NCBI GenBank assembly: GCA_022508465.1
Contig: JAFLVB010000001.1
Span: 1-64,000 of the forward strand
Direction: 5' to 3'
DNA: 64,000 bases
Origin: Clostridiales bacterium
Lineage (GTDB): Bacteria > Bacillota > Clostridia > Christensenellales > Pumilibacteraceae
This document shows positions 26,659 to 49,156 of the stretch, piece by piece (position 1 is the stretch's first letter; each line of letters begins with the position of its first letter). The notes beneath the pieces are model-generated. The model did no database searches, was not told the DNA's origin, and saw only the letters and a list, made by a program, of their open reading frames with translations. Position numbers and translations under genes: made by a program.

Positions 26659-26670
26659 ACCTTTAGTAAA

Positions 26671-26762
26671 GGCTCCCCTGTGTATTCGCTTCGCTCATGG
26701 CGTTCGTCACTCCGTGCCTCGGCTGAGAAGGGGAGTTGGCGCCGCAGGCGACTGAGGGGATG
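26671..26762 (+). repeat. Bipartite-hairpin repeat, copy E3
   Basis: GGCTCCCCT...loop...AAGGGGAGTTGGCGCCGCAGGCGACTGAGGGGAT. Confidence 0.7.
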
Positions 26763-26795
26763 TATAATAAAAGTAACCAAAAAACTTTTAACCTT

Positions 26796-26828
26796 TCAGC
26801 CGAGCGAGTGTAGCGAGTGGTGGGGGTA
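26796..26828 (+). repeat. Partial repeat (3' module), copy E3b
   Basis: CAGCCGAGCGAGTGTAGCGAGTGGTGGGGGTA. Confidence 0.6.
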
Positions 26829-26830
26829 AA

Positions 26831-27190
26831 TTATTTTTCTAACCCAAGCCTAATTAGAATATCGCGACAAACAGCATCAAAATTATAATTAATATCCAAG
26901 TTAGAATATCTGATGACAGTAAGTCCCAACGAATTTAAAAACTCGTCTCGTTTTTTGTCGTATTCCAAACCGGCTTCCTCAAAGTGCTGTGAGCCGTCAA
27001 GCTCAATAACGATACGGGCAGAGGCGCAATAAAAGTCTACTATGTAATTACCGATTACTTTCTGGCGAGAAAAATGAAGAGGTAAGTCGTGCAAGAATTC
27101 AAACCATAGTTTTCTTTCCTCACTTGTTGGATTAGAACGTAATTTTTTTGCAAGAGAAGAAAGGTTAGCATTATGTAGTAATCTCGCCAT
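26831..27190 (-). CDS. DUF559 domain-containing protein (restriction-endonuclease/Vsr-like fold)
   Basis: Start revised from 27253 to ATG 27190 (GGAG SD); LRSNPTSEERKLWFEFL, FSRQKVIGNYIVDFYCASARIVIELDGSQH. Confidence 0.9.
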   Translation of the reverse strand: MARLLHNANLSSLAKKLRSNPTSEERKLWFEFLHDLPLHFSRQKVIGNYIVDFYCASARIVIELDGSQHFEEAGLEYDKKRDEFLNSLGLTVIRYSNLDINYNFDAVCRDILIRLGLEK

Positions 27191-27243
27191 AGTAAAACTC
27201 CTTTTGATTATAGTAACATAAATTGCAACAAATGAATAACTAT

Positions 27244-27331
27244 GTACCCCCATCCGTCTGCTGCGCAGACACCCTCCCCCTTAGTGTAACTTTTTACGTT
27301 TATAGTAGCATATGTCCAAGGGGTAGGGCTT
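27244..27331 (-). repeat. Bipartite-hairpin repeat, copy E4
   Basis: Reverse complement: AAGCCCTACCCCTTGG...AAGGGGGAGGGTGTCTGCGCAGCAGACGGATGGGGGTA. Confidence 0.7.
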
Positions 27332-27572
27332 GCTTAAGGAAAGTCGACTTTATTATATAGTTATTATTCGACCTGTGCCTTGAGGGGCAAAGAACTTTAG
27401 AAATATTTATTATTGTTATAGGTATAGTATTTTTACAAGTTATTTGAAATAAATAGCCCAAAAGAAAGGTCTACCCATTGTAAAATTAATTTGTTAAATA
27501 AGCAATTCCAAATAGTAGGGCTTGTAACGTTGGGCTTCTTTACTGAGAAGTCCTGCCATAACCAAAAAGAAA

Positions 27573-27652
27573 GGCTTACCCCTTGGAATTGGTTTCTTTA
27601 GCGTAATAAACAAATCAAGGGGGAGGCTCTCGCGTAGCGAGTGGTGGGGGTA
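27573..27652 (+). repeat. Bipartite-hairpin repeat, copy E5
   Basis: GGCTTACCCCTTGG...TCAAGGGGGAGGCTCTCGCGTAGCGAGTGGTGGGGGTA. Confidence 0.7.
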
Positions 27653-27677
27653 GTTGCATTTTGTCCCAAAGTAGGCT

Positions 27678-27908
27678 TTAATTTTCTTTCTTATACTCAC
27701 TAATGCAGAAAATATCTGCTGGGTCGACATCGAGAACTAAACAAAGATTTGCAAAGCTATCTAATGAAGGTAGCTTTTGTTTGTTGAGATAACGATATAT
27801 TTGAGCTTGATTTATTCCTACGCGACGAGCAATTTCGCTTTGAGATAATCCGCTATGTTTAATTGCCTCAGCTAACTTTTTATTAATTTGTTCTAATGTA
27901 ATAACCAT
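27678..27908 (-). CDS. XRE-family HTH protein
   Basis: Start revised from 27974 to 27908, directly after the upstream XRE stop; AEAIKHSGLSQSEIARRVGINQAQIYRYLN. Confidence 0.8.
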   Translation of the reverse strand: MVITLEQINKKLAEAIKHSGLSQSEIARRVGINQAQIYRYLNKQKLPSLDSFANLCLVLDVDPADIFCISEYKKEN

Positions 27909-27910
27909 AA

Positions 27911-28123
27911 TTATAAATTTGAATATTCGTCCAATCCGAGCAGATAGTCCGAACTTTCGTTTAATAAAATACAAAGTTTATAAAGTATTTCGATAGAAGG
28001 GAGATTTTCTCCCTTTTTCCAATTTGTTATATTTCCTTCCGATATATTAAGCTCTTTTGCAATTTCTTTTTGGGTGAGTCCACTTGATTTAATTGCATAC
28101 GATATTCTTTCTTTAAAAAGCAT
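27911..28123 (-). CDS. XRE-family HTH transcriptional regulator
   Basis: YAIKSSGLTQKEIAKELNISEGNITNWKKGENLPS; GAGGT SD. Confidence 0.85.
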   Translation of the reverse strand: MLFKERISYAIKSSGLTQKEIAKELNISEGNITNWKKGENLPSIEILYKLCILLNESSDYLLGLDEYSNL

Positions 28124-28139
28124 TTTAATTACCTCATAG

Positions 28140-28154
28140 TTCAGTTTAACTGAT
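28140..28154. promoter_or_regulatory. Putative operator O1 of the divergent XRE locus
   Basis: TCAGTT T AACTGA palindrome next to the XRE ribosome-binding site. Confidence 0.6.
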
Positions 28155-28169
28155 TTTACTTAAAAATGC

Positions 28170-28198
28170 TTGACAATTCAGTGTAGCTGAATTATAAT
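28170..28198 (+). promoter_or_regulatory. Consensus sigma-A promoter with operator O2 as its spacer
   Basis: TTGACA-ATTCAGTGTAGCTGAAT-TATAAT; spacer is exactly 17 bp and is an inverted repeat. Confidence 0.8.
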
Positions 28199-28221
28199 AT
28201 AAATTAAGTGAGGTAACGAAT

Positions 28222-28485
28222 ATGGAAGAAACACCAAAGAAGAAAGAATGTAGACAATGTCATCGGTTTAAGAGATATTATACAAAAGGCGCATATAAAT
28301 TAAGCGGGACAGAAATAGGGCAGTGCTATTTGAAAAATGAAATAGTAGGTCTATATGATACATGCGAAGATTGGCGGCGTAAAGAAACATGGAGAAATAT
28401 ATCAAACAAAAGAGTATGTAGAAATTTATTGCCTGACCTGTTGTTGGAGATATCTACGATAAGGGTGACACTCGAAGATGAATAA
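28222..28485 (+). CDS. Small four-Cys protein, paralog 1
   Basis: GAGGT SD; ECRQCHRFKRYYTKG...GQCYLKNEIVGLYDTCEDWRRK. Confidence 0.7.
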   Translation: MEETPKKKECRQCHRFKRYYTKGAYKLSGTEIGQCYLKNEIVGLYDTCEDWRRKETWRNISNKRVCRNLLPDLLLEISTIRVTLEDE

Positions 28486-28702
28486 CAAGGAATGTAGAAA
28501 CTGCAAGAGCTATAAAGCGTTTTACACTATATATAATGGAATAGTGCAAGATACAGGGCAGGGAGAGTGTACGGCACAAATTAAAATAGTGACGTCAGGG
28601 ACCTGTAAGTTATGGCGCAGGCGAAAAGAAGGCGTGACAATAGAGGAACTCGACGGAGCGATAGAAAATCTTAATGCTATAATGCGCATATACGGCGAGT
28701 AA
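28478..28702 (+). CDS. Small four-Cys protein, paralog 2
   Basis: Overlaps paralog 1 end; ECRNCKSYKAFYTIYNG...GECTAQIKIVTSGTCKLWRRRK. Confidence 0.7.
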   Translation: MNNKECRNCKSYKAFYTIYNGIVQDTGQGECTAQIKIVTSGTCKLWRRRKEGVTIEELDGAIENLNAIMRIYGE

Positions 28703-28753
28703 TAAAATAAGAAAAAAATTTATCTTTTATGCCTTAAAAATCGTTATTTTTGT

Positions 28754-41406: not shown

Positions 41407-41452
41407 GGCTCCCCTGGCAAGGGGAGCTGTCACCGCAGGTGACTGAGGGGAT
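41407..41452 (+). repeat. Bipartite-hairpin repeat, copy E6 (compact)
   Basis: GGCTCCCCTGGCAAGGGGAGCTGTCACCGCAGGTGACTGAGGGGAT. Confidence 0.8.
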
Positions 41453-41468
41453 TGTAAATTAATGATAA

Positions 41469-41538: not shown

Positions 41539-41596
41539 GGCTTCCACCTTGAGGGGGAAGCTGGCTGTGAGCTTGCGAACAGACTGATGAGGGTGA
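41539..41596 (+). repeat. Bipartite-hairpin repeat, copy E7
   Basis: GGCTTCCACCTTGAGGGGGAAGCTGGCTGTGAGCTTGCGAACAGACTGATGAGGGTGA. Confidence 0.7.
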
Positions 41597-48626: not shown

Positions 48627-48692
48627 CCTTCCCCCTGCCGGAGGCAACGAGGGGGAAGGTGGCTGCGAGGCACGAGCAGACGGATGAGGGTG
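48625..48692 (+). repeat. Bipartite-hairpin repeat, copy E9
   Basis: GACCTTCCCCCTGCCGGAGGCAACGAGGGGGAAGGTGGCTGCGAGGCACGAGCAGACGGATGAGGGTGA. Confidence 0.7.
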
Positions 48693-48780
48693 AATATAAA
48701 ATAACACAATAAGTTGTTACAGCAATGTAGCAACTTATTTTTATATTCCTCAAATTGAGCGTAGCGAAACCAATAATAAA

Positions 48781-48851
48781 GGCCTCCACCTTACTCGCCG
48801 TTGGCTCGTGGCGTTCGCACTCTACGAGTGCTCGGCTAAGGAGTGTGGACT
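48781..48851 (+). repeat. Diverged repeat, copy E10
   Basis: GGCCTCCACCTTA...GGCTCGTGGCGTTCGCACTC...CTCGGCTAAGGAGTGTGGACT; shares its loop sequence with E3. Confidence 0.55.
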
Positions 48852-48855
48852 AAAA

Positions 48856-48900
48856 GGCTCCCCTGTGCAAGGGGATCTGGCGCCGCAGGCGCCTGAGGGA
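48856..48900 (+). repeat. Bipartite-hairpin repeat, copy E11 (compact)
   Basis: GGCTCCCCTGTGCAAGGGGATCTGGCGCCGCAGGCGCCTGAGGGA. Confidence 0.75.
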
Positions 48901-49156
48901 CTGTATTATAGTTGTAAAATACTTGCAATATCGTCCGGCAAGTGTTAAATGTGAACTATCATTGAAACTTTTGCAATCCGCTTGACAATTGCGGATTTTT
49001 GTTTTATAATGTACAATGTATAGATGTGTAAGTATAATATTTGCATATATGTACAAAAAAAGCAATTATACAAATTTTACCTGCCCGTTTTGCTATGTAG
49101 ACACTTAAAAATGCGATATAGCGGGGCCCGTTGGGATATAAGAGGTGAATTTTTTT

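Follow-up and report, generated by a model that had tools for sequence, protein, structure and literature searches.

In the REP/REPIN-RAYT system, the gene for the presumed enzyme is itself flanked by the extragenic palindromes that are otherwise dispersed, enzyme and repeats co-vary, distinct enzyme copies occur in one genome, and the repeats form inverted doublets (PMC3116915). The same features recur in the combination of DUF559 genes and hairpin repeats described here. The enzymes are different, RAYT being a Y1 HUH transposase (PF01797) and DUF559 a Vsr-like nuclease of the PD-(D/E)XK type, and the DUF559 repeats are distinguished by two adjacent hairpins with a G-rich tail, the gene often ending inside the repeat. 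MITEs and classical insertion sequences resemble the DUF559 units in their terminal inverted repeats, which surround the DUF559 gene, and differ from them in that the units have no DDE transposase and no target-site duplication was seen. Homing genes such as that of I-Bth0305I (an EDxHD, Vsr-like enzyme) share with DUF559 the fold, the organization as one small nuclease gene, and the insertion into otherwise tight operons. I-Bth0305I is encoded within a group I intron, and we know of no free-standing homing gene that is wrapped in dispersed hairpin repeats of its own type; DUF559 resembles homing genes in its predicted fold, a likeness that does not by itself establish membership.

DUF559 (COG2852, YcjD) is a common bacterial family whose role is not settled. 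Vsr, YcjD, NGO0050, and Caulobacter VsrA belong to the same family, and the ycjD gene of E. coli likewise has its end within a hairpin repeat; YcjD, NGO0050, and VsrA have been studied or annotated solely as nucleases or repair enzymes, and the papers that we found on them mention no partnership with repeats. The DUF559 genes of Sinorhizobium and Shinella have palindromic mosaic repeats at their flanks that resemble RIME and other rhizobial intergenic mosaic elements in general build, and no enzyme tied to RIME was found in the literature. Among open-access papers, we found none that links DUF559 (COG2852, ycjD) to repeats.

Here we report an analysis of a DUF559 gene and its surroundings in a 64-kb stretch of clostridial DNA, referred to as the window, together with DUF559 loci from related Clostridia and from other phyla. 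We consider it probable, at roughly 0.6, that DUF559 and its hairpin repeats belong together as the two halves of a single miniature mobile element, made of a nuclease and hairpins.

The DUF559 gene of the window and its repeats

The gene and the repeats around it, as well as four dispersed copies in the window, are as follows.

26831 to 27190, minus strand: DUF559 gene encoding a 119-aa single-domain PD-(D/E)XK (Vsr-like) nuclease (PF04480, 106 bits, E 1e-30)
26671 to 26763, plus strand: left hairpin repeat, with hairpin A (GGCTCCCC..GGGGAG), hairpin B (GGCGCCGCAGGCGAC), and tail GAGGGGAT toward the DUF559 gene (R1 match at 26716-26763, E 1.1e-6; pattern match)
26799 to 26828, plus strand: second left repeat end, CGAGCGAGTGTAGCGAGTGGTGGGGGTA, its tail 2 bp from the DUF559 stop codon (from sequence; identical 19-mer at 27634-27652)
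27245 to 27290, minus strand: right inverted repeat, TACCCCCATCCGTCTGCTGCGCAGACACCCTCCCCCTT, tail toward the DUF559 gene (R1 match, E 2.4e-4)
27617 to 27652, plus strand: outer repeat copy, AAGGGGGAGGCTCTCGCGTAGCGAGTGGTGGGGGTA, tail away from the DUF559 gene (from sequence; shared 19-mer)
41407 to 41454, plus strand: dispersed repeat of the same type as the flanks of the second DUF559 gene of the genome (R1, E 3.5e-14)
41540 to 41595, plus strand: dispersed repeat with a GATGAGGG tail (R1, E 2.5e-8)
48627 to 48692, plus strand: dispersed repeat with a GATGAGGG tail (R1, E 5.1e-10)
48856 to 48904, plus strand: dispersed repeat (R1, E 1.4e-9)

DUF559 is placed in the PD-(D/E)XK/Vsr-like endonuclease group, to which the first-pass annotation had also assigned the protein, and structure prediction agrees. 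The AlphaFold2 model is confident (pLDDT 92), and its closest match in the PDB by Foldseek is NGO0050 (3hrl), a gonococcal DUF559 protein, followed at ranks 2 and 3 by the homing endonuclease I-Bth0305I (3r3p; E 1e-4, TM 0.67/0.81), where the match covers the catalytic domain and gives DUF559 the predicted fold of a known homing endonuclease family; Vsr (1cw0) stands at rank 5 (E 5.5e-3), in line with a Vsr-like fold. Residues E25, Q43, D52, E63, D65, H69, and R81 are invariant in an alignment of 66 relatives, and suit a PD-(D/E)XK-like site, of which they are the putative catalytic residues. DUF559 (PF04480) is the sole protein encoded by the window unit, which has no DDE transposase gene. 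Elsewhere, in-frame stops interrupt 3 of 85 DUF559 genes (L037, L122, L140), so some units are dead. A scan of viral contigs gave only two relatives. In Faecalibacterium prausnitzii A2-165, a DUF559 gene is reported to lie immediately upstream of the gene for the anti-inflammatory protein MAM (PMC8836110).

The first-pass annotation had described the gene as packed between inverted copies of a hairpin repeat with facing 8-bp ends, giving a unit of about 430 bp. The inverted arrangement was borne out by the covariance model R1, whose training repeats came from the neighborhood of other DUF559 genes and included no copy from the window: of its only six matches in the 64 kb, two lie on either side of the DUF559 gene with their tails inward, so the larger repeats are not a chance occurrence. 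Both 8-bp ends exist: TGGGGGTA occupies 26821-26828 and leaves 2 bp to the stop codon, and TACCCCCA occupies 27245-27252, shifted to the right by one base from the position first given (27244..27251). This octamer occurs three times in the 64 kb, about as often as base composition predicts, with all three occurrences inside 830 bp, and in view of that frequency we rejected it as stand-alone evidence. A unit bounded by the 8-bp ends is weakly defined at this locus; the larger inward-facing repeats are significant. The two flanking copies are both degenerate and differ in subtype, and their pairwise score, 9.0, is no better than that of control genes; the unit thus stands out far more clearly at other loci.

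The tail of the second left repeat end recurs beside relatives at loci L085 and L086, and the GGTGGTGGGGGTA type of the window was found again at these two loci, which belong to another family; the L085 protein is among the closest to the window DUF559 in the alignment (60% identity). About 45 nt are nested inside the loop of hairpin A in the left repeat. Other hairpins are nested in hairpin A loops, one of the CGCTTCGCTC..TGGCGTTCG..CTCGGCT type (window positions 26690-26727 and 48780-48840; L043) and one of the GCGACGCGT..AAACAGTCC..GGACTGTTT..GCGGGGAGCAATCTATGATTGC type (L032 and L038, with related forms in L037 and L123), which makes the repeats mosaics. Between the DUF559 and HTH genes there is also a separate inverted repeat of 21 bp, TCCAAGGGGTAGGGCTTGCTT, with arms at 27315-27335 and 27567-27587 that are 86% complementary and 231 nt apart.

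Besides the window gene, the host genome (1.55 Mb in 88 contigs) has one other DUF559 gene, likewise sandwiched between repeats, with three tandem GGCTCCCCTTAGTAAGGGGAGCTGTCACGAAGTGACTGAGGGGAT copies upstream, one of them slightly varied, and one inverted copy downstream. The pattern GGGGAG(N8-24)GAGGGGAT has six matches genome-wide, five of them beside the two DUF559 genes, and the reversed control pattern has zero matches in the whole host genome. A Y1 (HUH) transposase of the RAYT type (PF01797) gave no match in the host genome. This bears on the idea that DUF559 is mere cargo and the repeats owe their movement to a RAYT or IS200-type (Y1/HUH) transposase, which we regard as very improbable: a Y1 transposase is present in 17 of 52 genomes that have both DUF559 and repeats and is absent from the other 35, and the link to DUF559 was seen in every phylum sampled. 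RAYT was accordingly rejected as a general mobilizer.

Association of DUF559 genes with hairpin repeats

DUF559 genes were gathered from the family (74 genomes) and from the order (396 genomes), with 80 regions retrieved, and the 200 bp on each side of every gene were compared with each other in both orientations. With the 99th percentile of 621 ORFs of these loci as the threshold, matching flanks were found for 67 of 84 DUF559 genes of the same order (51 inverted and 46 direct matches). In the second sets this percentile threshold was distorted by a small number of control ORFs located in repeat arrays, and we instead applied a rank test and a fixed score cutoff of 18. In 73 named clostridial loci, a score of 18 or more was reached by 50 of 73 DUF559 genes, compared with 13 of 417 control ORFs (rank test p = 1e-19) and, among small ORFs, 8 of 116. 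The first-pass annotation had proposed a search for matching repeats beside the DUF559 genes of related Clostridia; in both surveys, they flank most of these genes. Inverted flank matches scoring at least 14 surround 93 of 157 DUF559 genes, which thus have terminal inverted repeats. Under a stricter definition of repeat shape, the tail of the upstream copy points toward the DUF559 gene in 38 loci and away from it in 13; the tails observed were GAGGGG, GGAGGG, GATGAGG, and GGTGGGGG. Left-end and right-end repeats no more than hinted at a difference in subtype (Fisher p = 0.09), from which no claim is made. At loci of genomes G021 and G022, hairpin repeats often have another dispersed, abundant sequence, GGGCGCGGCGAGCGT..CTAAATATAC..TTGCGCAAAAACTAATAAAA, immediately to their left.

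The gene and the repeat are frequently fused. In 37 of 157 cases, the downstream repeat overlaps and encodes the 3' end of the DUF559 ORF, the C-termini ..KQSLSQLR*, ..PLSHLR*, and ..QSPQSPYGDSSPC* being translated repeat. Many genes have their stop codon inside the inverted copy (TGA-CAGCTCCCTTTACACAAGGGAGCC), and many start directly after a tail (GACGGAGGGATTGT-ATG), so that GGAGGG could serve as a ribosome-binding site. Judged from the sequences, a 3' overlap of this frequency would not be expected of a gene that had merely landed near repeats.

These observations bear on a role of DUF559 as a gene for Vsr-like mismatch repair or a restriction-like function, retained through addiction or a benefit to the cell and brought by ordinary horizontal transfer into repeat-rich, recombination-prone intergenic islands. 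YcjD had been assigned to the PD-(D/E)XK group by 2005 and is profile-similar to Vsr (PMC1189080). In Caulobacter, the DUF559 protein VsrA is responsible for the DNA-damage response of cells without the methyltransferase ScmA and was proposed to work in mismatch repair with ScmA (PMC12907096), so DUF559 members can act on DNA in vivo. No methyltransferase gene was found among the searched neighbors of the window DUF559 gene. We judge such a role quite unlikely to account for the loci, where the DUF559 gene ends are encoded by the repeat and other genes, small ones included, are sandwiched in only 3-7% of cases, and where DUF559 is also found within operons, among them pnt, suf, paa, and hpa.

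Repeat type tracks the phylogeny of the nuclease across host families, and different DUF559 clades have different repeat types, for example GGAGGGATTG and GATGAGGTG. Protein identity predicts the similarity of flanking repeats across host families (rho 0.275, against a maximum of 0.119 in 500 permutations), and among pairs from different host families a repeat is shared by 92% of those with more than 70% protein identity versus 1% of those below 40%. In multi-copy genomes, the DUF559 that is closer to an outside protein is the closer one by its repeat as well in 444 of 620 contrasts, a value reached in 0 of 200 permutations.

To compare whole genomes, we used a repeat model of 36 sequences, in which 8 of 10 base pairs have compensatory changes. 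A repeat match at E <= 1e-6 was present in 63 of 68 DUF559-positive and in 50 of 328 DUF559-negative genomes (odds ratio 70, p = 1e-35), and in 41 of 46 versus 50 of 328 after removal of the genomes that contributed training copies (p = 9e-24), these p-values being nominal given the non-independence of species and a ceiling of about 15 scored matches per genome. Repeat occurrence is thus strongly tied to DUF559 presence, the relation across genomes that the first-pass annotation had put up for comparison. DUF559 is missing from 27 repeat-rich genomes, so the repeats persist, and perhaps spread, without it. For 20 dispersed solo copies, the median score was 34 against the DUF559 flanks of their own genome and 17 against those of other genomes, with the own genome in the top three of 59 for only 11 of the 20. 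Copies inside one genome are at most about 75% identical, which speaks against a recent transposition burst.

In other phyla, all 21 DUF559 loci from a plasmid collection that includes some chromosomes have a hairpin by eye at or near one or both gene edges, mostly C-rich; matching flanks scoring at least 18 were found in 13 of 21, versus 26 of 1179 windows, the remaining 8 genes having one hairpin only and no matching flank pair. The flank anatomy is as in Clostridia in Alphaproteobacteria (Sphingomonas, Sinorhizobium, Shinella), Deinococcus, and cyanobacteria. Copies from Sphingomonas, Shinella, and Sphingobium have the clostridial build of hairpin A, a GGGGACCG or GGTGGCCC hairpin B, and a GGAGGGG or GGATGAGGGGG tail, and a repeat-encoded C-terminus was also found in Sphingomonas DUF559. 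The 3' end of E. coli ycjD translates the repeat CACCCTCACCCCAACCCTCTCCC (C-terminus ..LSPSPQPSP*). Whereas DUF559 genes occupy many different intergenic sites, ycjD has one fixed site, and the full sapF-ycjD-fabI locus (L280) is present in 3364 of 5426 complete E. coli genomes. Presence and absence of ycjD were rejected as a case of clean excision, as O157:H7, the one other genome examined, has an efflux operon upstream of fabI. The NGO0050 gene of Neisseria gonorrhoeae (L278), whose protein structure is solved, lies between long direct repeats (score 80). Repeat flanks are present at most of the roughly 180 other DUF559 copies examined in several phyla, and the association of the gene with flanking hairpin repeats is real and general.

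Sites without the unit and a candidate mode of spread

Empty sites, which the first-pass annotation had suggested looking for in sister strains, were found in relatives at two clostridial loci. The first is that of the window itself.

26659 to 28712, no strand assigned: arsB-gdhA block of 2.1 kb with DUF559, repeats, two HTH genes, and two small ORFs, absent in sister species (L182, L183)

In the sister species G022 and G023, about 170 bp separate arsB from gdhA, where the window has its 2.1-kb block. The two small HTH regulators and two small ORFs (27678-28123, 28222-28702) share the block that is missing from the sister species. At the second locus, genome G008 has the order gyrA, repeat, DUF559, inverted repeat, iscS, and genome G006 has only a single hairpin-A palindrome, ATAGGCTCCCCTTGCACAGGGGAGCCTTA, between gyrA and iscS, with DNA 92.5% identical to G008 up to the junction. 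On a Sphingomonas plasmid, a 450-bp unit lies between pntAA and pntAB; in Sphingobium (about 78% identity) the two genes overlap, and this empty site has no hairpin. Further DUF559 intrusions were seen between sufB and sufC, between paaD and paaZ, and at two different hpa-cluster positions in two Deinococcus species, hpa also giving a site without the unit. No exact unit junctions and no target-site duplication were found at the compared sites, including the G008/G006 junction inspected by eye, and the EF-P locus and the G022 rplL-rpoB doublet gave no clean empty site because their surroundings differ too much.

The strongest rival to a joint mobile element holds that DUF559 is a free-standing homing endonuclease gene, for which older, independent repeats are only landing or cleavage sites and homology arms. 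The fold near that of I-Bth0305I, the lone palindrome of G006 exactly where G008 has the unit, and the existence of repeat-rich genomes lacking DUF559 all agree with it. We still consider it unlikely, as repeat type co-varies with nuclease clade even where one genome has several DUF559 genes, genomes lacking DUF559 rarely have repeats, and the related empty site of the Sphingomonas pnt operon is without a hairpin.

A further set of elements fits a joint mobile element. The sister species G022 has gene-less inverted doublets of 150-160 bp around about 50 bp of other sequence (L322:1403-1554; L334:1399-1556), with both end types as in the DUF559 unit of that genus, similar to MITEs or REPINs. 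They look like non-autonomous derivatives of the DUF559 unit.

Under the preferred reading of one miniature mobile element, the autonomous unit of about 450-600 bp would consist of a repeat (hairpin A, hairpin B, G-rich tail), the nuclease gene, and an inverted repeat, and the dispersed single and paired repeats would be its non-autonomous relatives. The nuclease would recognize its own repeat, in duplex form or as a single strand folded into a hairpin at the replication fork, and would cut or nick at or beside it. Repair of the break with repeats as homology could then copy the repeat or, less often, the whole unit to another place, in a mode like that of REP/RAYT or of a homing endonuclease but with a Vsr/I-Bth0305I-type PD-(D/E)XK enzyme as the engine. 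Linkage, repeat-encoded 3' ends, co-variation, genome co-occurrence, unit-free sites in relatives, and the anatomy in other phyla are established at the level of sequence comparison; we infer that the nuclease moves, spreads, or maintains the repeats. The analogy to RAYT/REP drawn in the first-pass annotation fits well, with an enzyme inside its own repeats, distinct intragenomic copies, co-variation, and no RAYT in the host, and its suggestion that a nuclease spreads the repeats keeps its conjectural standing. A mobile unit that works like REP/RAYT or like a homing endonuclease is the best explanation for DUF559 and its repeats; the Y1 enzyme that defines REP/RAYT was absent, so we do not count the unit as a member.

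These comparisons suggest that the DUF559-repeat element is a so far undescribed kind of miniature mobile element, and there is a real chance that the DUF559-hairpin system forms a class of its own. It is possible, although we would hesitate to call it probable, that DUF559 proteins are the engines of unrecognized, phylum-spanning mobile hairpin elements that are driven by a PD-(D/E)XK enzyme without a transposase or recombinase, and that many C-rich repeats, such as those of the CTCACCCCAACCCTCTCCC type and the CCTCCC..GGGAGG repeats of gut clostridia, are their non-autonomous products. A fixed partnership of DUF559 and repeats, if true, would give a partial answer both to the role of DUF559 and to the origin and upkeep of dispersed hairpin repeats, and it would add a nuclease-driven route for the mobilization of non-coding palindromes alongside RAYT.
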